Below are positions 35,749 to 47,727 of a stretch of DNA of 47,727 nucleotides, one piece after another. Below the pieces are notes generated by a model. That model did no database searches. It was not told where the DNA came from and worked only from the letters and a program-made list of their open reading frames with translations. Position 1 is the first letter of the stretch. Every line of letters starts with the position of its first letter. The position numbers were made by a program, and so were the translations under genes. Origin of the DNA: a bacterium ADurb.Bin243 (GTDB lineage: Bacteria > Muiribacteriota > UBA9980); assembly GCA_002069765.1 (NCBI GenBank), contig MWBZ01000023.1:1-47727 (forward strand). Reading direction: 5' to 3'.

Positions 35749-38505
35749 TTACGCGATCTGTCTTTCGGCCATTTTTTTGAAAAGGCCGCCGCGCTTTATA
35801 AGTTCTTCATAATTTCCGCATTCTACGACGCGGCCGGCCTCTACCACGAAAATACGGTCGGCTTTTATTATCGTGCTTAGCCTGTGGGCGATAACTATTC
35901 TCGTGGCATGGAGATTTTCGAGGCTCTCCGACACGACGGCCTGCGTTTTGTTGTCCAGCGCGCTCGTGGCTTCGTCGAAAATAATGACCCGCGGTTTTTT
36001 AACGAGCGCCCGCGCTATTAATATTCTCTGCTTCTGCCCGCCCGATATGGTCGAGGCGCCCTCGCTTATCATCGTATGCATGCCCATCGGCATCATTTCG
36101 ATGTCTTCGGCGAGGCCGGCGCGGCGCGCGGCGTCCCACGCGTCGTCTATGGTGAGCATGGAAGAACCCGTTATATTCGACAGAATAGTTCCCGACATAA
36201 GCTGGCCGTTCTGCAATACCACGCCGATCTGGCGCCGCACCGCCCTTACGTCCACGCCGGAAAGGTCGTGGCCGTCGTAGAGTATCGCGCCGGAAAGCGG
36301 CCTGTCGAAGCCAAGCAAAAGCCTTATAAGCGTGGATTTTCCGCTGCCGGATGGGCCCACGATCGCCGCGAATTCGCCTGGTTTTATGCTCATGGATACG
36401 TCGCTTAAAGCGGGGATGAGGCTGCCTTCGTATTTGAATGTGACGCCGCTTATTTCCACGGCGCCGTTCAGTTCGCCCGGATCCTCCTTGGCCTCGTCGA
36501 ATTCAGGAACGGCTTCCAGTATGGGTTTCGCTCTTTCATAAAGCGTGTAAGCGCTGAGAAGCGACAGGGTCGAAGAAGAAATTTCGCTCATGCCCGCGAA
36601 AAAAGTCGAAAAAGCCGAGCTGAAAGCTGTAAACGCGCCGGAAGTCATCGTCTGACCGGATTCGGGATAATTGACGATGCACCAGAAAAATATAATGGAG
36701 CACACCAGCGTATAGGCCGAATTAAAAACCGTAGTCAAATTCGTAAGAATATAGGAGGGTATTTCTTTTTTTTCTTTGAAAAGTTTCGCCCACAGGCCGA
36801 AAGCTCTGCTTTCCGCGCCCGCCACCCGGAACTTGGCTATGCCGCTGATTATTCCGAAAATCAGGCCGGAAAGCTTTCCGTCAAGCTCCATTATGCGTTT
36901 TGAATAATTATACTGAAGCAGAAGAACCGAGAAATAAAACAGCACGGCTATAAGCGCGAGGCCGGCCGCTATCAGAGCCAGTTTCTTGCTGTAATAAAAA
37001 AGCAGGAAGAAGTTTAAAACCGAAAAAGTTCCGGTCAAAAGCGAGCTGAAAACGGTTCCGGAAATGGTCTGTCTTATAGAATTTACGCTCAGCGCCCGCA
37101 TCGCGAGATCGCCGGTGGAGAATTTCCTGAAAAAAGGCGCAGGAAGAGCTAAAAGCCTGTCCCATACGGCCGCCTGCAAAGACGCGTCAATTTTATTTTG
37201 AAAACGGAGCGTCGCGATGGAGCGGAAAAACTGCACCAGCAGGACGCATATGGCGGCCGAGATTAAAATGGCCGTAATCTGGACCATCTGCGTGCGCTCT
37301 ATTTCGGGTATAAGCGTGTCGAAAGCGATGCCGGTCGCCATGGGCGTAAGCATATTTATTATGCTCAGAGCCGCGCCGGCGAGCACCATCATGGCCGCGT
37401 CACGGAATATGCCGGCGTCCGCCGCGTAGCGGCTTATATCTCTTATGCCGAGCGGCCTTGCCGGAAGAGGCTTGTAAAACATATACGCGATGCCCGAAAG
37501 CATGGCGGCCTCTTTGCGGCCGACATTCAATGCTTTTCCGCCGCCGGGGATATGCAATTTATAACTCGACGCCGATTGCGGAATAAGGGCGGCCGGCCGG
37601 CCGTCTTCGAGGTAGGCCAGAAGCGGCCCCGAGTCTTTTGTCCACCACTCGCCGCGCAGCAGAACTTTTCTGTGGCGCACCATCGAAAAGCGCGCCGTTT
37701 CAGAAACCGGATCGGCGATAGCTTCGCCTTTTTTTATGGCCGGCGGTATTATGATTTCTATTTTCGAGGCCGCTCCGACGAGCATGCACGCGGCGGCGAA
37801 TTCTCCGTTAGCGGCGTCCGCCGTTGAAACGCCTTCGAATTGCGGATCGACTATCGAAGCGAAACCGGAAAGGGAGCGTTCAACGATCTCGGCGTCGCGC
37901 GCGGTCTTTTTAGCGAGCCTTGATATTTCTTCGTTTTCGGCGTTTTGCGTATATATTTTAAACCAGAAACGGTTGGTGACCGGAAAATACCCGGCGTGGC
38001 CGGCAAAAAAAGCGAGATAACTTCCGAGCGCTTCCACTTCGCCTTCGATAAGCTTTACCCACAGGACCTCTCCCGGTCTCGCGCCGTATGAAAAATTGTC
38101 CCGCATGGCGATAGCATCGCCGGGTTCTATAAATTCAAGGTTTTTTGGGGGGAGTTTATAGCCTACCAGCGCGAAAGTTATATTTTCGGCCCAGCCGTCT
38201 AAAAGCGCGGCTTTCGAGCCGTCATCGCCCGCGTCCGCGGCGAGAAAGCCGATCGGTTTTTCTTCGAGGACGGCCGTCGGGGCCGCTCCGGCGACTATCC
38301 TGCAGGGATTGTCGGGGCGGAAATCAAAACCGGCCAGCATCTGGCCTTTTTCAGCGGTGAAAAGCCAGCTTTTCCTGCCGAAAGAGCCGTCGGGACGGAT
38401 TCTGGTTAGAAAGACGTTGACCGAGCCTTCCCTGACCAGCCACGCTTTTTTATCGCCTTCCAATACGAAGCAATCTTTAGCTTTTAGATCGATAATCATA
38501 ATCAT
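35749..38505 (-). CDS. NHLM/NHLP bacteriocin-type ABC exporter, permease/ATPase subunit without peptidase
   Basis: This 918-residue half-transporter has an unusually long N-terminal part of ~350 residues with a cyclic-nucleotide-binding-like start (FVLEGDKKAWLVREGSVNVFLT). Such a part is typical of the second ABC subunit of NHLM peptide export systems. Six membrane helices follow (about 375-650), then the nucleotide-binding domain: Walker A GPSGSGKST, signature ISGGQKQRI, Walker B VIIFDEATSALD and switch IVIAHRLST. It has no C39 peptidase and probably pairs with the C39-bearing exporter 16 bp upstream. It is the last gene of the operon. A GGA before the second in-frame ATG at 38499 makes that start possible too. 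Confidence 0.88.
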   Translation of the reverse strand: MIMIIDLKAKDCFVLEGDKKAWLVREGSVNVFLTRIRPDGSFGRKSWLFTAEKGQMLAGFDFRPDNPCRIVAGAAPTAVLEEKPIGFLAADAGDDGSKAALLDGWAENITFALVGYKLPPKNLEFIEPGDAIAMRDNFSYGARPGEVLWVKLIEGEVEALGSYLAFFAGHAGYFPVTNRFWFKIYTQNAENEEISRLAKKTARDAEIVERSLSGFASIVDPQFEGVSTADAANGEFAAACMLVGAASKIEIIIPPAIKKGEAIADPVSETARFSMVRHRKVLLRGEWWTKDSGPLLAYLEDGRPAALIPQSASSYKLHIPGGGKALNVGRKEAAMLSGIAYMFYKPLPARPLGIRDISRYAADAGIFRDAAMMVLAGAALSIINMLTPMATGIAFDTLIPEIERTQMVQITAILISAAICVLLVQFFRSIATLRFQNKIDASLQAAVWDRLLALPAPFFRKFSTGDLAMRALSVNSIRQTISGTVFSSLLTGTFSVLNFFLLFYYSKKLALIAAGLALIAVLFYFSVLLLQYNYSKRIMELDGKLSGLIFGIISGIAKFRVAGAESRAFGLWAKLFKEKKEIPSYILTNLTTVFNSAYTLVCSIIFFWCIVNYPESGQTMTSGAFTAFSSAFSTFFAGMSEISSSTLSLLSAYTLYERAKPILEAVPEFDEAKEDPGELNGAVEISGVTFKYEGSLIPALSDVSMSIKPGEFAAIVGPSGSGKSTLIRLLLGFDRPLSGAILYDGHDLSGVDVRAVRRQIGVVLQNGQLMSGTILSNITGSSMLTIDDAWDAARRAGLAEDIEMMPMGMHTMISEGASTISGGQKQRILIARALVKKPRVIIFDEATSALDNKTQAVVSESLENLHATRIVIAHRLSTIIKADRIFVVEAGRVVECGNYEELIKRGGLFKKMAERQIA

Positions 38506-38521
38506 TTTCCATTATTATCAG

Positions 38522-40699
38522 TTAATGCATTTTTATTAATTGCGAATAGGCGCTGTCCGGGTCCGCCGAGAGTTCTTCGTGCGTTCCGCGGCAGACGATC
38601 TTGCCGTATTCCATCACTATTATTTCGTCGCAGTCGCGAACGGTGCTTAGCCGGTGGGCCACTATAATGCAGGTGCAGCCGCGCCGCCTGAGGCTTTCGT
38701 CGATCATTTTTTCGGTCTGCGGGTCGAGCGCGCTGGTGGCCTCGTCGAGGATCATAACGCTGGGGTTTATCGCGAGCGCCCTCGCTATTTCGAGCCTCTG
38801 GCGCTGGCCGCCGCTGAAGTTCTTTCCGCCTTCCTCGGTCCAGGCTTCATAAGCGGCCGGCCGGCGAGCTATGTCCTCGTGAATGGCCGCGTCGCCGGTT
38901 GCGAGAAATACCGAAGCGTCCGGAATGGAATAATCCCATAATATGATATTTTCTTTGACGCTGCCTTCGAAAATGGAAATATCCTGGTCCACTATTGAAA
39001 TCGAGTTGGTGATAACGCCGTTGGATATTTGCGAACGCGGGCGCCCGTCAAAAAGTATTTCGCCCGACCACGGCATATAAAGGCCGGAAACGAGCTTGGC
39101 GACGGTCGATTTTCCTGAACCCGAACTTCCTACGAGGGCCACGCGCATGCCCGGCTTGAGTTTGAGGTCGAAGTTTTCTATGAGCGGCGGCTCGAGCCTG
39201 CTGTAACCGAAAGTGACGTTTTTTAATTCGACGAAACCTTCTAATTTGGATATTTTTTCATCGGCGCGCTCCGCGCATTTTTCCGTAAACCTTTTATCTT
39301 CGCGGTAATTCATTACATCGTCTATCCTGTTCATGCTGCCTTCGAGCTCCTGAAGCGAAGAGCCCAGCTGGACGAGCCTGTTGACCGGCTCGATAAAGCT
39401 CGCCATGAGGCTTTGAAAAGCCACCAGCATACCGAGGGTCATCTTTCCGTCCATGACCAGAAAACCTCCGAAGCCTAGAATTAGAGCGTTATTCAAAGCG
39501 TTGAGGAACGTCGGAACGCAGGCTATGAACTGGTTCGTCGTTTCCATGTCCTGCGACGCGCAGATCACGTTCGCGTGAAGGCCGCTGATCTTGGCGAAAA
39601 AGTCAGTTTCGGACCCGGACGCCTTAAGCGTTTCTATTATAGAAAGGCCGCTCACCGCATCGCCGGTGAACTTGCCTCTTATCTGAAGCAGTTTCTGGTT
39701 TTGATCCACTTTGCGGCGGGCCACCGACTTTAATATGAGTATGTTTATAACGGCTATGCAGGCGCCTATCGCGGTGAGCATGACATCGTACTGGCACATC
39801 AAAAAGGCGTAAAAGACTATAAGAAGGCAGTTCAGGGCGTTGGTGGCCAGTTCGCCCGAAAAAAGCTGAGCGACCTGGTCGTTGGACTGAAGCCGCGAGC
39901 TGAGATCGCCGGCGAAGCGCTGCGCGAAAAATTCTATGGGCAGGTGAAGGACATGCATGAAAAATTTCGAAGAGGTAGAAAGCGCCAGCTTGATTTCGAG
40001 CATCGAGAGGTGGTGCTGCTGAAGGGCCGTGAGCAGGGCGCGCAGAACGCCGGTTAAAATCATTCCAAGTATCAGCGGCCGCAGCCAGTCGGTCGAATTT
40101 CCGATCAGTATATTATCTATGAATATTTGTGAAAAAGTCGGTATGACAAGGCCTGGAATTACAAGGAAAAGGCCGGCCAGAACCGAATATGTAAGCGCCA
40201 TTCCCGCGCCCGGCAGCCTTTTGAGTATCGCTTCTATCATGCTTTTTTTACGGCCGCCGGTTTTGAATTCGGGCGTCTTTTCAAATATCAGTGCCACGCC
40301 CGTATAAGACTCGTTGAATTCTTCGAATGAAACGACGCGCGGGCCTTCCGCCGGGTCGTTGAGATAAACCCTGTTGCCCGAAAATCCTTCCAGCACGAGA
40401 AAATGGTTGAAGTTCCAGTGTATTATCGCCGGGACTTTTATGAACCTGAGTTCTTCGGGTTCGTATCTATAGCCCTTTGCCGTGAGATTATAGCCGCGGG
40501 CGGCCTTAAGCAGGTTTGATGCCTTGCTTCCGTCGCGCGATATTCCGCATTTTTCACGCAGCTCTTCGAGAGTTATAAAAAGCCCGTAATAACTCAGAAT
40601 AATTCCAATCGAAGCGGCGCCGCACTCGACGGCTTCCATCTGGATAAGAGTGGGCGTCTTGACTCTTTTATATTTCTTTTTTATCGTTTCTTTCGGCAT
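38522..40699 (-). CDS. NHLM/NHLP bacteriocin-type ABC exporter with N-terminal C39 leader peptidase
   Basis: This 725-residue peptidase-containing exporter removes a double-glycine-type leader and exports the peptide. The C39 peptidase occupies residues about 12-150: TLIQMEAVECGAAS with the catalytic Cys and preceding Gln-Met-Glu, WNFNHFLVLEG with the His, and LNDPAEGPR with the Asp. Six membrane helices follow (about 165-460), then the nucleotide-binding domain with GSSGSGKST, FSGGQRQRLE, MILDEATSALD and VAHRLST. All catalytic residues are intact. Gene order next to an HlyD-type adaptor and a second ABC subunit matches NHLM RiPP export operons. Its substrate should carry a leader ending in GG or a similar pair; no such gene is visible here. 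Confidence 0.92.
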   Translation of the reverse strand: MPKETIKKKYKRVKTPTLIQMEAVECGAASIGIILSYYGLFITLEELREKCGISRDGSKASNLLKAARGYNLTAKGYRYEPEELRFIKVPAIIHWNFNHFLVLEGFSGNRVYLNDPAEGPRVVSFEEFNESYTGVALIFEKTPEFKTGGRKKSMIEAILKRLPGAGMALTYSVLAGLFLVIPGLVIPTFSQIFIDNILIGNSTDWLRPLILGMILTGVLRALLTALQQHHLSMLEIKLALSTSSKFFMHVLHLPIEFFAQRFAGDLSSRLQSNDQVAQLFSGELATNALNCLLIVFYAFLMCQYDVMLTAIGACIAVINILILKSVARRKVDQNQKLLQIRGKFTGDAVSGLSIIETLKASGSETDFFAKISGLHANVICASQDMETTNQFIACVPTFLNALNNALILGFGGFLVMDGKMTLGMLVAFQSLMASFIEPVNRLVQLGSSLQELEGSMNRIDDVMNYREDKRFTEKCAERADEKISKLEGFVELKNVTFGYSRLEPPLIENFDLKLKPGMRVALVGSSGSGKSTVAKLVSGLYMPWSGEILFDGRPRSQISNGVITNSISIVDQDISIFEGSVKENIILWDYSIPDASVFLATGDAAIHEDIARRPAAYEAWTEEGGKNFSGGQRQRLEIARALAINPSVMILDEATSALDPQTEKMIDESLRRRGCTCIIVAHRLSTVRDCDEIIVMEYGKIVCRGTHEELSADPDSAYSQLIKMH

Positions 40700-40756: not shown

Positions 40757-40787
40757 ACTGTTCACTATGCACTGTACACTATTCGTT
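40757..40787. repeat. 31-bp relic related to the interior of the MITE
   Basis: This stretch matches MITE bases 46283-46313 at 26 of 31 positions. It starts at the stop codon of the HlyD-type gene and runs into the 86-bp spacer before the C39 exporter. No terminal repeats are visible here, so it is at best an old remnant. Confidence 0.5.
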
Positions 40788-42051
40788 AGTAATAGATGCC
40801 CGTCCATTTTTTCAATATGGGAATAACCAGATTTATGGGCCTTTCAGTTTTATATGTAACCAGAGATTCGCAAAATGTTCCGCTCTGGATTTTTAGCGGC
40901 GGCCCTTTTTCGGTGGACCATTTATATCCGCTGTAAGTCGTTTTATCGCTTATGAGATCGGCTTTTACTTCGAGCACCGCGCCAGAATTGGTTATTGACG
41001 AAACCAGCTGGTCGTTAGCCAGAAGTTCGAGTATTCGAGCGGATGTGACCGGATATTCGGATACTTTCGTCACTTTGCCTAGAATGAAGCCGTATTCTTC
41101 CTTTTTAACTATCGTCGGCGATATTCGTATATCCATGCCCGGTTTTACCAGCTTGCCCTCGCCTATGGGAACATAGACGATCGCCTCGATATCCTTGATG
41201 TTTTTTCCGATAAGCTCAAGAGTGACGATCGCTTCGCCGGAAGCGACGGATTTTCCGATGGCGGCGACTATCTGAACGACCTTTCCTGCATAGGGGCTGA
41301 TTATTTTAGACGAATCTTCATATTTTTTAAGAAGGGTATTCAGGTTGTCTGTATTTTCTTTGATCTGGCCGTCGATCGTATATATTTCTTCATTCTGCGT
41401 CTTTTTCGTTTCGACTTTTTTCACTTCGAGCTCTTTGAGCTGGTTTTTGGATGATGCGATGGTTTCTTCGAGAGTGTTGATCTGTTGTTTGGTGGAAAGC
41501 GCCGTGTCTTTGGTTATAAGCCCTTTTTCGACCAGCGTTTTCTGATTGGCCAATTTTTCATTTAAAATTTTCAGGTTTTCGGTATTGCTTTTGATCGAGT
41601 CGTTGAGTTTTTTCGCTTCGTCGTCGATATATTCGATATTTTTAATATTACTTTCAGAGTTATACGATATGGTTTTTTCTTTCTGCGCGACCAGGTTTTT
41701 AATTTTTTCACGCAGATCTACTATCTGATTGAGGGTTGTGGATTGATCGATTCTGGCCACTACGTCGCCTTCTTTTACGAAATCGCCTTCGCGGACGCGG
41801 ATATCGATGATCTTTCCGGTGAAGTCATGGCTGATATTAAAAAGGCCGCCTGTTTTTATGAGCATGCCGGTGCCGCTGACCTTATATGATATGGTCCCGA
41901 ATACGCCCCATATTAAGCCCGTGGCGATAGCCAGGGCCGCCGCTAAAAGCGCGAGCCAGCCTCGCGGATGAGTTATTACGACAAGCCTGTCGAGCTGATC
42001 GGGCGTCGAGAGTTTTTCCAGGGCAGCTTTTCTAAAAAGTTCGCCGGACAT
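40786..42051 (-). CDS. HlyD-family adaptor of a NHLM-type peptide secretion system
   Basis: This 421-residue membrane-fusion protein has an N-terminal cytoplasmic stretch (LFRKAALEKLSTPDQLDRL) typical of NHLM secretion proteins, then a single membrane segment at about 33-53. Half a biotinyl-lipoyl domain follows (FTGKIIDIRVREGDFVKEGDVVARI), a long coiled-coil hairpin (about 110-240), the second lipoyl half (ISPYAGKVVQIVAAIGKSVASGEAIVTL) and a beta-barrel region. It should bridge the ABC exporters to an outer-membrane TolC-type channel. GGAAG overlaps the stop of the upstream lipoprotein gene, so the two are translationally coupled. Its stop codon lies at the edge of a MITE-related relic. Confidence 0.9.
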   Translation of the reverse strand: MSGELFRKAALEKLSTPDQLDRLVVITHPRGWLALLAAALAIATGLIWGVFGTISYKVSGTGMLIKTGGLFNISHDFTGKIIDIRVREGDFVKEGDVVARIDQSTTLNQIVDLREKIKNLVAQKEKTISYNSESNIKNIEYIDDEAKKLNDSIKSNTENLKILNEKLANQKTLVEKGLITKDTALSTKQQINTLEETIASSKNQLKELEVKKVETKKTQNEEIYTIDGQIKENTDNLNTLLKKYEDSSKIISPYAGKVVQIVAAIGKSVASGEAIVTLELIGKNIKDIEAIVYVPIGEGKLVKPGMDIRISPTIVKKEEYGFILGKVTKVSEYPVTSARILELLANDQLVSSITNSGAVLEVKADLISDKTTYSGYKWSTEKGPPLKIQSGTFCESLVTYKTERPINLVIPILKKWTGIYY

Positions 42052-42055
42052 TTTT

Positions 42056-43255
42056 TCACTTCCATTTTATATCTATGTTTTTTATCAGATCGGCCTCGCC
42101 GGTCGAACCGATATATACGAATTTTTTATCGTTTACTATTTTTAAAATTATTTTTTCATTCAGGATTTCGCCTTTTTCGTCAAACTCGTAATTAGCGATT
42201 ACGCCTTCTTCGTTTTTAAGGGCGCGCATCGCCGCGGAAACTTTTTTTGGAACGGCGCTTCCGGCGCGTTTAATCGCTTCGGCTAAAATTTTAACGGCGT
42301 CGTAAGCCTGCGCTGAATAAGTGTCGGGAAGCATGCCGAACCTGTTTTTATATTCGTCGATAAATTTAGATTTTTTGCGCGAGCTTATATCTAACGGATT
42401 AAAAAAAGAAGTGACTATGGTACCTTCAGAATATTCGCCGGCCTGGTTTATGAATTCATGATAATTCATGCCGTCGCCGCAAAATATCGGCGTTAAAATT
42501 CCCGCCCTGCGGACCAGCCTTATAAATTGCGGGCCTTCCGGCGGGCCGCCGAAAAAAAACGCGCAGTCGAACTTCAAAAGCTTCCAGCAGTCGATTACCT
42601 GTTTAAATTCGCTCGCGTTTCCCGAAGAATAAGACCTTCTATCGACGACCGATATCGAAAGCTTATTTAATTCGTCCTCGCACGCGTTGGCGGAGCACAG
42701 GCCGTAATCGTCGTTGACGTAACAAATGGCGGCTTTTTTATAACCGAGTTTGTCTATCAGCCCGGCAAGCCTGGCGGCTATGTCGTTAGCGTTCGGGGCC
42801 GTCCTGAAGAGAAGCGGGCTTTTGAAAGAGTTGTAGGCCGGGTCCACGGAAGTGGTGTTGATCATAACGATCCCCGCGTCGCTATAAATTTTTGATACCG
42901 GTATCGTGACGTATGAATTGCAAAAACCGACCGCCGCGCATAATTCGAGATTCGCCGCGAATTCGTCGGCTATCGTCATGCCGCGTGTGACGCTGGATTC
43001 GTCGTCTCTGAAAACGATATTTAATTTTTTGCCGAGAAGGCCCCCGGAAAGGTTGATTTCGTCCGACGCCATTACGACGCCGTTGACGAAACTTTTAAAA
43101 TTCGACTCGAGCGGCCATACCACGCCTACGTTTATAGCGGGCGACGAATCGATTTTTTTATCGCGCTGCGCCGCCCTGCCGCTTTCGAATTCGCAGCCGC
43201 ATGTGAACGATAATGCCATCAGCAGGCAAAAGCAATAATAGATTTTATTTTTCAA
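42056..43255 (-). CDS. Periplasmic ligand-binding lipoprotein (branched-chain amino-acid receptor family)
   Basis: This 399-residue protein has a signal peptide ending in LSFTCGCE, with Cys residues suited to lipid attachment although the lipobox is not perfect. The rest matches the type I periplasmic binding fold of the LivK/amide receptor family: GVVWPLESNFKSFVNGVVMASDEIN, GLLGKKLNIVFRDDES, AAVGFCNSYVT, AAICYVNDDYGL and YSAQAYDAVKILAEAIKRAG. It starts at a TTG (43255) and overlaps the TolC-type gene by 11 bp; its own stop feeds the HlyD gene four bases on. No LIV permease genes are present. Its place inside a peptide-export operon suggests a sensing, immunity or substrate-capture role, which is inference. 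Confidence 0.85.
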   Translation of the reverse strand: MKNKIYYCFCLLMALSFTCGCEFESGRAAQRDKKIDSSPAINVGVVWPLESNFKSFVNGVVMASDEINLSGGLLGKKLNIVFRDDESSVTRGMTIADEFAANLELCAAVGFCNSYVTIPVSKIYSDAGIVMINTTSVDPAYNSFKSPLLFRTAPNANDIAARLAGLIDKLGYKKAAICYVNDDYGLCSANACEDELNKLSISVVDRRSYSSGNASEFKQVIDCWKLLKFDCAFFFGGPPEGPQFIRLVRRAGILTPIFCGDGMNYHEFINQAGEYSEGTIVTSFFNPLDISSRKKSKFIDEYKNRFGMLPDTYSAQAYDAVKILAEAIKRAGSAVPKKVSAAMRALKNEEGVIANYEFDEKGEILNEKIILKIVNDKKFVYIGSTGEADLIKNIDIKWK

Positions 43256-44510
43256 GGTTTTTCACTTCCGGTAACGCTATTAAGTCGTCCATTTTTATTT
43301 CACATTCCGAGGTGCCGAGCCGGCCCATGCATCCGGCTTCATGTCTTAAATCGGCCAGGGCGTTCGCGTATTCGAGCACGATCGATTCCAGGGAAAGTTC
43401 GGACTGCCCCAGGCTGTCTTCGGTGTTCAATACGTCCAGCAGGGTAGAAACGCCCATGCGGTGCTTCTCTTTTTCGTTTTCAAGGGCTTTCGCGTAAAGG
43501 CGGCAGGATTCGAGCGTGCGCCTGTAGCGGCCGATAATCGAAACGATCGCGCTTATCCGCGTTTCTATATTGATGCCGATTTTGCGGGAGATTTCTTCGG
43601 CCTTGATCTTCGCCTGGACGAACTGCTCTTCCTGTTTGATAACGGCGGCGCGGGCGGAGCGGTTGCCGGGCGGAAACGAATAGCTGACGGTGGCGCTGAT
43701 ATTGGCCCCCGGCACGCCTTCGTGCATGGATGAAATAATGGCGGCCGCGCCCTTGTCGTCTTTTCTGCTGTTGTAGCCGGCGGTGATTTGAAGGTCGGCC
43801 TGAGGCCGCAGGGCGTCTTTCGCCGCCGGGATAGTGAATTTAAAAGATTCGAGGCGCTTTTGCGCCGCGGCATAATCTTTTCTGTTGGCCATGGCGAATG
43901 CCGTCAGCGTTTCGGACATCAGGGCCGTTTCAGAGCTATCTCCCGCAAGGCGGTCCGCTGGAAAAAAATCGGCGGGCGGCCCCGATATCAAAGGCGAATC
44001 TTTAGGCACTCCGGCGGCTACTTTTAGATCGTTGCGGGCCTTAAGGAGCGCCTGCGAGGCTTTTTCGCAGTCGGCTATTTTCTGGTTCAGGTTGGCGGCA
44101 AGCTGGTCGAGCTCGGAGGCCGCCAATTCGTCGTTTTCTACTAGAATTTTTGTGTCGTTGTAAAGCTTTTCGGAACGGATTTTAGATTCTTCGGCCACTT
44201 TCAGGGCTTTATATGAATAAGCGTAGCTCCAGTAAGACTGTATAACGTCGTGCACGGTCTGGGATATAGTATAAAGGCTGTCTAACGATGCGCTTTCCAG
44301 CTCGATTTTCGAGGATTTTTCGGCGGCCGCGTTGGCCTGGAAATTGTTGTCGCGCCCGAGCGGCCTGGTTATGGCGAATTGGACTTTTTCGGTGGTGCGT
44401 GGCGCGCGGTTTTCGGGATCGTTGGATTCGCTCGTTGAAACGGCGATGGAAGGTGAAATCGTGGTTCCGCTCCGGTAGAGCCTCTCGTAGCCCAGATTGT
44501 GGGAAAACAC
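43245..44510 (-). pseudogene. TolC-family outer-membrane channel gene lacking its 5' end
   Basis: The frame encodes an outer-membrane efflux protein with two OEP repeats: the helical stretches around SLDSLYTISQTVHDVIQSYW, LVENDELAASELDQLAANL, RKDYAAAQKRLE, QADLQITAGYNS and HRMGVSTLLDVLNTEDSL are all typical. The usual signal peptide and first ~80 residues are missing: recognisable sequence begins near DVTKYKQGVFSH at about 44534, right where a B12/radical SAM reading frame ends. A GTG at 44510 is the only usable start and would yield a protein without a signal peptide. The gene therefore looks 5'-truncated by a deletion or by misassembly. It would otherwise be the outer-membrane partner of the HlyD/ABC exporter encoded downstream. 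Confidence 0.8.
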
Positions 44511-44530: not shown

Positions 44531-44677
44531 CGTCGGCTCGCCCTGAAAGACAAGCGCGTCGTAACCGCGGCTTTCCAGGTATCCGGCCAGATAAAGGAGT
44601 CCGGGAGACTCGTTCGTTATCTGCATGAGGTCGTAATTGAACCTGTGAATATTTAACAGCAGGACTTTTCCGTGCAT
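44531..44677 (-). pseudogene. 5' fragment of a second B12-binding radical SAM gene
   Basis: From an ATG at 44677, with GGAG upstream, about 49 codons read MHGKVLLLNIHRFNYDL, then SPGLLYLAGYLESRGYDALVF. This is the opening of a cobalamin-binding domain as found in B12-dependent radical SAM enzymes. The family resemblance stops near GEPT at about 44531 and the DNA continues, in another frame, as the body of a TolC-type gene. No radical SAM Cys motif remains. It overlaps none of its upstream neighbour, whose stop is at 44691. The remainder, probably more than 1.5 kb together with the TolC start, is missing. Confidence 0.75.
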
Positions 44678-44690
44678 GATAGCTCCATTA

Positions 44691-46719
44691 TCAATATTTA
44701 TTGAATACAATCCAGTTTTTCTTATCGAAATCGCAAAGTATTTCGAAGGCCATGCTTTTAAATTCTTCGAATGATTCGAAAGATTTCATGAAAATCGAAT
44801 ATAGCCTTTCGATGATCTCGCCGAGCTTTAGTTTTCCGCTGCAATGAAGTATCAGCTGATATTCCAGCGGCGATAAAACGTATCCGGATATTTCCGGCGT
44901 CATTTCACGCCATGCGACGGCGTTCCATAAACTAAAGACCCTTAAAGGCCGCCACTGATCGATTTGATCGCGCGGCACGCCCCCGAGCGTTTCAGCCGAG
45001 CTGCCGGAGAGCAAACTGTACTTCCTGTTCAGGAAAGGGTCCTGCGAATAAACGGCCCTGTGCCAGACGCTCGAAATGCCGTACAGCGCGCTGAGGCGAT
45101 AATGGCTCATTATCAGTTCGCGCGGGACGAGGCCTTCCGCCAGAAGTTTTTTCATGCGCGAAACCAGTTTTTGTGTAAAGTCGTATTTGGCGGCCGAAAT
45201 ATCGTATATGTCGAGAGCTTTCGTTCTTGAAACGGGAAAATCCCCGATAGAAGTAAGCGACGCCCGGTCGGCGATCTCGACGCCGAAATCAAGCGGGCAT
45301 TCGGTTATCGCCGCGCCGGGATACGGCGTAAAAAGCGTAAATGAAATATCGAGCATTCCCGGCGCCATGCCAAGCAGGCGGTCGATGAAATTCCATGTCT
45401 CGCTGAGCGTTTCGGAGGTTTCGCAGGCGCCTCCGATTATGATATTTCCGCAAAGCTGCGCGAGTCCGGCGTCGCGGCAGGCGCTTACGACCTTTTCTAT
45501 CTCGGCGAGGCTCGTCTGTTTCCGGTAAAGGTCGATCAGCCGGGCGGAACCGGTTTCTATGCCGATCTGCATACGCACGAGCCCGGAATCGACCATGCGT
45601 TTGATCATTTCGGGCCATCTGGCGATAAGGCCTGGATGCCCCTCGCAGAACCAGACGAAATCTCTTTCGCGCCTCAATTTTGAAAGTTCGACGCAAAACT
45701 CTTCGAGTCTTTCGCGGCTGAGAGTAAAGGTATCGTCGGCGAACCATACGTATTTTATTCCGGGGTTTTCGTCCAGGCATTTTCTGATTTCGGCCATGAC
45801 ATTGCCGACGCTTCTGAGGCGCACTTTCTTCGCGGCTCCGCCCATAAAGCAGAACGCGCAGCGGAAAGGGCAGCCGCGGCCGGTAAGTATGGCTATATTA
45901 GACTTAGGCCCCGTAAGGGAATATGACCGCTTTTGATGCGCGAGCGAATCGAGGTCCTGGATGGGTTCGCGTTCTTCGGTTGACGCGAGCGCGCCCTGGC
46001 CGTCGATAAAGGTTATGCCCTTTATCCGTTTCAGTTCGCCTTTTTTATAAACGATAAATTCGAGAAGTTCGAAAAGAGTTTCTTCGCCTTCGCCTACTGC
46101 GGCGGCGACGGCTTTTGAGCGCAGGAAAAAATCGGTTCTTTTTCATATCGTATGGGTAAAATATTTAAATTTAAGTTAAGAGTTCAGAGTGGAGAGTTGA
46201 GAACTAAAGGACTTTTGGAAATTTCGATAAGTCTTTTTTTTTTATTTTATATATAAAGCTCGCAGGGCGAGCCCCAGCCTCAACTATTCACTATCCACTC
46301 TACACTATTCACTGACAACTTACCCACATGAAATGAATAAGAGCCAAAAAATCTTTATCAAGCGCGGACGCCTGAGGCCCGCCGACTATGACGGGTACCG
46401 AAAATTTTTCGGCGATAAGCCCGCCGAAACTTTCTATTAGAGAAACATTTTCAAAATCGCAGTAGAAGCCGATCGCGGCGATGGGACGCCTTGCGGATTC
46501 CAATTCAAGTAAATTCAGCGCGTCTATGGACGTTCCGGTAAACACCCCGGGTTCATAGCCTTTATCGCCTATAAACGCGGCGAGGGACATAAGGCCCAGG
46601 GGTTCGATATATTTGAATGAGTCCTTAAAAAGCGGTCTTTGAATAAAAAAAAGCGGCACAAAAGGCTTTTGCTCTTTTTTATGCGGTTCGCATGTGTTTT
46701 TATATTTGAAATCGTCCAT
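44691..46719 (-). pseudogene. B12-binding radical SAM RiPP-maturase-like gene, interrupted by a MITE
   Basis: The 5' part (46719 to about 46346) encodes a cobalamin-binding domain: FIQRPLFKD, EPLGLMSLAAFIGDKGYEP and VIVGGPQASALDKDF. The reading frame then enters a 212-bp inserted element and stops. Past the element it resumes with FFLRSKAVAAAVGEGEETLFELL, the cluster motif GRGCPFRCAFC (CxxxCxxC, first Cys codon at 45872-45870), and a radical SAM core with FADDTFTLS and QIGIETGS. Removing the element and one 8-bp duplicate gives a continuous 602-residue frame. The last ~85 residues (LSPLEYQLILHCSGKLKLGE...) resemble a PqqD-like RiPP recognition winged helix. As it stands two broken frames remain; the longer could start at the ATG at 45845 but would lack the Cys motif. 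Confidence 0.88.
46134..46345. mobile_element. 212-bp MITE, complete copy with 8-bp target duplication
   Basis: The left end 46134-46159 (GGTTCTTTTTCATATCG...) and the reverse complement of the right end 46320-46345 (GGCTCTTATTCATTTCA...) match at 21 of 26 positions. AAAAAATC occurs directly on both sides (46126-46133 and 46346-46353), an exact 8-bp target duplication. The interior has no gene. It holds a small perfect hairpin (GCTCGC-AGG-GCGAGC, 46258-46272) and diverged inverted arms around AGAGTGGA, so one strand could fold along much of its length. GG(C/T)TCTT ends and 8-bp AT-rich duplications are typical of the ISL3 family, whose transposase could move it in trans. Confidence 0.92.
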
Positions 46720-47614: not shown

Positions 47615-47727
47615 GGTTCTTTTTCATATCGTATGGGTAAAATATTTAAATTAAGTTAAGAGTTCAGAGTGGAGAGTTGAGAACTAAAGGACTTCTGGAA
47701 ATTTCGATAAGGCTTTTTATTCTTTTA
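47615..47727. mobile_element. Second MITE copy, cut by the window edge
   Basis: It begins with the same GGTTCTTTTTCATATCG end and follows the first copy for ~105 bp with one 1-bp deletion and a few substitutions, mainly in the T-rich stretch. It lies 39 bp past the GNAT stop in the same orientation as the first copy. The predicted target duplicate is the preceding octamer TATAATTA (47607-47614); its partner lies outside the window. Confidence 0.9.

Follow-up and report, generated by a model that had tools for sequence, protein, structure and literature searches.

In Microcystis aeruginosa PCC 7806, a MITE of 187 nt is present in 31–33 identical copies with 8-nt duplications; it is mostly intergenic, lies within some genes, and has one copy inside the sbp gene (PMC11448079). 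The 212-bp element described here is likewise a short hairpin with 8-nt duplications, and the Microcystis ends (GGCTCTTCG) are common to ISL3-family transposases. Differences are seen in the length of the matching ends (9 nt in Microcystis, 26 here), in the copies (identical in Microcystis, 2–14% from the consensus here) and in the host phylum, and neither a captured heptad hairpin nor retained transposase codons are described for Microcystis in the available part of that report (PMC11448079). With the Microcystis element as a close parallel, ISL3-type MITEs are already a published kind, of which the 212-bp element is a further example. Autonomous ISL3 elements (L131, L132, L134, L135, L143, L145 and L151) resemble it in end sequence and in their AT-rich 8-bp duplications, and have a stop codon near or inside the repeat, as does the left end of the MITE; they differ in being 1.3–1.45 kb long and in carrying a transposase, whereas the MITE keeps the ends only. 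The third point of comparison is the Nif11-leader/NHLP type of RiPP locus (TIGR03798, TIGR03796, TIGR03797, TIGR03794). NHLP exporter genes are present at the locus studied, but the genome differs from such loci in that the precursor is gone and, of the maturase array, only a single, split gene is left.

The window analysed is the whole of contig C23 (47,727 nt) of a 5.0 Mb assembly (G000; 317 contigs, 96% complete) that belongs to the genus of the UBP16 genome UBA6123. A literature search for UBP16 and UBA6123 gave, among the matches listed, unrelated papers only, mostly on ubiquitin proteases. The features of the locus are collected in Table 1. We consider it highly probable that the 212 bp are a MITE with ISL3 ends, mobilised by an ISL3 element of the kind termed group B below, which split a B12/radical-SAM RiPP maturase gene in a genome where the rest of the RiPP genes are deleted.

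Table 1. Features of the split gene, the inserted element and the neighbouring RiPP-related genes in the window.
Feature	Position	Strand	Remarks
NHLP exporter permease/ATPase (TIGR03797)	35749..38505	-	
NHLP exporter peptidase/permease/ATPase (TIGR03796)	38522..40699	-	
NHLP secretion protein, HlyD type (TIGR03794)	40786..42051	-	
TolC-like outer-membrane gene	43245..44510	-	~117 N-terminal codons lost at deletion
Remnant of next maturase gene	44535..44677	-	~47 codons, fused to TolC-like interior; deletion junction 44535/44536
3' part of split gene, radical SAM domain, CxxxCxxC	44691..46133	-	first in-frame ATG/GTG/TTG at 45845, downstream of cysteine motif
Target-site duplication AAAAAATC, left	46126..46133	.	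orthologues with single copy
212-bp non-autonomous ISL3-type element (MITE)	46134..46345	+	copies of at least 160 bp, n = 37; consensus 211 bp; single long hairpin
Left terminal inverted repeat	46134..46159	+	complement encodes FTHTI*, the C-terminal codons of an ISL3 transposase group
Core, putatively captured: heptad-repeat hairpin (AGTTGAG/AGTGGAG ... AACTAAAGG ... ACTCTCCACT)	46174..46316	+	also dispersed without ISL3 ends
Right terminal inverted repeat	46320..46345	-	21/26 to left repeat; 22/26 to terminal repeat at contig C63 end
Target-site duplication AAAAAATC, right	46346..46353	.	
5' part of split gene, B12-binding-like domain, codons 1-124	46346..46719	-	frame enters element, stop at 46309
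Second MITE copy	47615..47727	+	cut by contig end

An earlier sequence-only reading of the window had described a MITE of 212 bp with imperfect 26-bp terminal repeats and an exact 8-bp duplication, and its account of these features was accurate: the repeats, GGTTCTTTTTCATATCGTATGGGTAA and GGCTCTTATTCATTTCATGTGGGTAA, agree at 21 of 26 positions, and AAAAAATC stands on both sides. The element holds neither a long frame nor a transposase, and as it is also multi-copy, has duplications and is matched by an empty site in relatives, its identity as a MITE was upheld. Folded as DNA it forms one long hairpin (z-score −4.89, no shuffle as good). A structured RNA was considered as its identity and rejected, since an Rfam scan of the 212 bp gave no family match.

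The genome search that the sequence-only reading had proposed returned 40 scored matches to the unit, with full-length ones elsewhere in the genome at E-values down to 1e-92, and terminal-repeat sites numbered 71 as against none with a reversed control, so the element is not a chance arrangement. Merging gave 58 pieces, 37 of them of at least 160 bp; as a few pieces may belong to one copy, the total is given as about 55 copies and fragments. For the 29 full copies, with ends strictly placed, an exact 8-bp duplication was found in nine, compared with 1 of 812 mismatched pairs in which left and right flanks were mixed between copies, and 7 or more of the 8 positions agreed in 16 (mismatched pairs, 19/812). 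Duplications thus occur in the family overall, and it is some of the older copies that have worn or missing ones. The copies differ from the consensus by 2–14% and have a median pairwise identity of 0.908. The copy in the split gene is 97.1% identical to the consensus and 96.3% to its nearest other copy. Near-identity to the copy at 47615 had been claimed, and the two are indeed close (96% over 108 bp), but no copy is identical to another. At least 15 contigs of the genome terminate in a MITE copy. Almost every copy lies between genes or at the end of one; of those examined, only the copy in the B12/radical-SAM gene is a clear insertion deep within a gene. A further candidate, at position 101503 of contig C5, gave a joined frame of 619 aa, yet by eye the frame looks like two neighbouring proteins, the first aminotransferase-like and the second acyltransferase-like, separated by the element, and it was rejected as intragenic.

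Removal of the element and one duplicate restores a reading frame of 1809 bp (602 codons plus stop) that is open throughout, as had been predicted, with the insertion point after codon 124. The sequence-only reading had also suggested looking for an uninterrupted gene in relatives, and this was found in two genomes of the same genus, where the 212 bp are absent and the octamer position is single-copy. Over the joined 400-bp flank, 359 positions (90%) are shared with contig C647 of G001 and 308 (77%) with contig C95 of G003, in both cases with zero gaps, and the orthologous frames specify proteins of 604 aa (90% aa identity) and 609 aa (78%), respectively. The joined protein matches PF04055 (radical SAM, 5e-20) and PF02310 (B12-binding), the latter at 1.7e-5, below the curated cut-off. 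With the B12-binding and radical-SAM halves separated by the split, the enzyme is almost certainly inactivated. Loss of function is very likely on the gene structure, since the first start codon of the C-terminal half (45845) lies downstream of CxxxCxxC.

The omega values of the joined gene (0.134 with G001, 0.121 with G003) equal that between G001 and G003 (0.128). They support purifying selection undiminished over nearly all of the divergence, and hence an inactivation that was recent on the time scale of the species. An earlier statement that the element was recently active and is actively breaking the gene therefore stands as to a recent hit, with no relaxed selection, but 'actively breaking' goes beyond the data given the spread of the copies around the consensus; the MITE family as such is not young.

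The ISL3 kinship proposed from the terminal sequence and duplication length was confirmed by the GGYTCTT-type ends, the 8-bp duplications and a comparison with ISL3 ends of the genus. Those of one group, here called group B (G000 and G003), agree with the MITE ends at up to 20–23 of 26 positions, a level at which the background in the window is near zero. Contigs C40 and C119 break off roughly 75 bp inside an element with the ISL3 3' end GGTTCTTTCTCAAATTGTGTGGGTAA, which encodes ...TMIYMITGKLNFDDLFVTHTI* with the stop codon inside the repeat. This end matches the left end of the MITE at 22/26; its VTHTI* corresponds to FTHTI* in the MITE, the register being unchanged. The end of contig C63 is a possible 5' end of a matching ISL3 element (22/26 to the right repeat of the MITE), and contig C172 of G003 ends inside an ISL3 transposase with the terminal repeat GGCTCTTCCTTAAATCGTGTGGGTAA. 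Group B relatives in other phyla carry the three ISL3 domains, DDE, HTH and zinc ribbon (PF01610, PF13542 and PF14690). Their ends have the form GGYTCYTCGCT..TTTCA.GTGGGTAA, and seven of these elements are flanked by 8-bp duplications that are exact and AT-rich. These likenesses point to an origin of the MITE ends in an ISL3 group in which the repeat includes the transposase stop (THTI*). In the search for an ISL3 transposase with matching ends, also suggested earlier, 3' ends were seen at C40 and C119, but a complete element of the matching group was not assembled in G000 or in three same-genus genomes. From these contig ends we infer that the mobiliser is probably the unassembled ISL3 element that stops C40, C119 and perhaps C63. 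The three ends (L079, L083 and L074) look like those of an apparently multi-copy element fitting the MITE ends.

The ISL3 transposases that are assembled (PF01610; contigs C82, C77 and C7 of G000 and C250 of G003) form a group A, and a mobiliser from this group, as on C82, C77 and C7, is an unlikely alternative to group B. They share the Pfam family and the first seven bases, GGTTCTT, with the group to which the MITE belongs, and G003 has a full 411-aa copy. Their ends (GGTTCTTCTCC...AGTTGCTA), however, agree with the MITE at 11–16/26 and have little in common with it beyond GGTTCTT, well below the figures for group B, and in G001, where relatives of the MITE do occur, PF01610 has no match. 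On end sequence, group A was rejected as the source of the MITE ends. The group A transposase gene on C77 (L032) is truncated mid-gene by unrelated sequence. Movement by an IS of another family, with the ISL3-like ends a product of convergence, is given extremely little credence: ISL3 is not alone in making 8-bp duplications, which are also found with, for example, IS66, IS1595 and ISAs1, but convergence would have to account for 20–23 of 26 end positions, including the retained C-terminal codons of a transposase, against a near-zero background.

Group B mobilisation is the favoured reading. A transposase-less element with both ISL3 ends would presumably have been moved in trans by an ISL3 transposase that makes 8-bp duplications in AT-rich DNA. 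Between its ends the element carries a heptad-repeat hairpin, found elsewhere in the genus on its own as well, and it jumped in after codon 124 of the maturase gene; the remaining RiPP biosynthesis genes were removed by a separate deletion in G000. The hairpin itself might instead have spread by a replication- or recombination-based route, with the ISL3 ends incidental. The core does lack ISL3 ends at most of 30 sites in G002, in G003 and at a few sites in G000; in G000, however, nearly all core copies are inside ISL3-ended elements, with the 8-bp duplications at the ISL3 ends and not at the core. For the 212-bp unit this route is largely refuted and must be thought very improbable, though for the core alone it may still hold. 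An assembly artefact, in which the element was misplaced in the gene, deserves scarcely any weight: the contigs that terminate in MITE copies indicate that these can confuse the assembler, but the 8-bp duplication is exact and private to this copy, and the gene halves rejoin without losing a base.

Across the genus, the heptad-repeat core (L221-L240, L278-L280) is scattered independently of ISL3 ends. Two G003 copies of the MITE (L122 and L123, both on contig C34) match the G000 consensus at 98.6% identity, compared with about 77% nucleotide identity and a synonymous divergence of about 1.2 for host genes of the two genomes. Misbinning of these copies was rejected because their flanks on C34 are native to G003 and only 69–82% identical to G000. 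The element had no match in plasmid and phage collections, and its right end no exact match in viral contigs. The near-identity of the copies suggests that the MITE may have spread recently between species. We give about even chances to a chimaeric origin, in which ISL3 ends captured a genus-specific heptad hairpin and the resulting mobile unit has recently passed from one species to another within an uncultured phylum. A high-copy, ISL3-driven MITE is hereby documented in an uncultured candidate phylum, with a gap-free empty site and a testable parent; this should be useful to annotators and mobile-element specialists, and the kind of element is in itself unsurprising.

The joined protein passed no NCBIfam family cut-off, so the name of the gene family rests on context, and by context its role as a RiPP maturase appears well supported, short of proof. 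In G001, G002 and G003 the orthologue lies in an array of 7–8 B12/radical-SAM paralogues around one precursor of 94 aa, with a Nif11 leader (TIGR03798) and a GG site. Neither a Nif11 precursor nor close maturase paralogues were found anywhere in G000. Aligned to G001, the window follows contig C647 up to 44535 (position 2170 of C647) and contig C252 from 44536 onwards (from position 11513 of C252), the two contigs having been joined by inference from the gene order of G003. Between the two sides of the junction G001 has at least 13.6 kb, the window counterpart of which is deleted; apart from the N-terminal part of the TolC-like protein, the lost interval in G001 encodes two additional maturases, the precursor, another four maturases and a protein of 371 aa. 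The sides of the junction share a 2-bp overlap only. Past the stop codon of the split gene (44691) come about 47 codons of the neighbouring maturase and, immediately after them, the TolC-like interior. The deletion at 44535/44536 explains the absence of the precursor, and with the other maturases also gone, the MITE occupies what is left of a RiPP locus. Either the pathway was already broken when the element inserted, or insertion and deletion broke it between them. The view that a peptide-maturation gene was being broken is accordingly backed by the RiPP context (NHLP exporters, Nif11 arrays), but qualified by the state of the locus, a relic with its precursor deleted. In a RiPP locus decaying via two separate lesions, the remaining NHLP exporter genes are no proof of a working pathway. 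In the relatives, the arrays (L115, 11483-20000, continued in L116, 1-5614; L117; L118) comprise 7–8 divergent paralogues and one precursor with a short core, e.g. GLSLVGVDYAFVGVQTSKK, and a Nif11-leader array of this composition looks like an unusually enzyme-rich RiPP locus.
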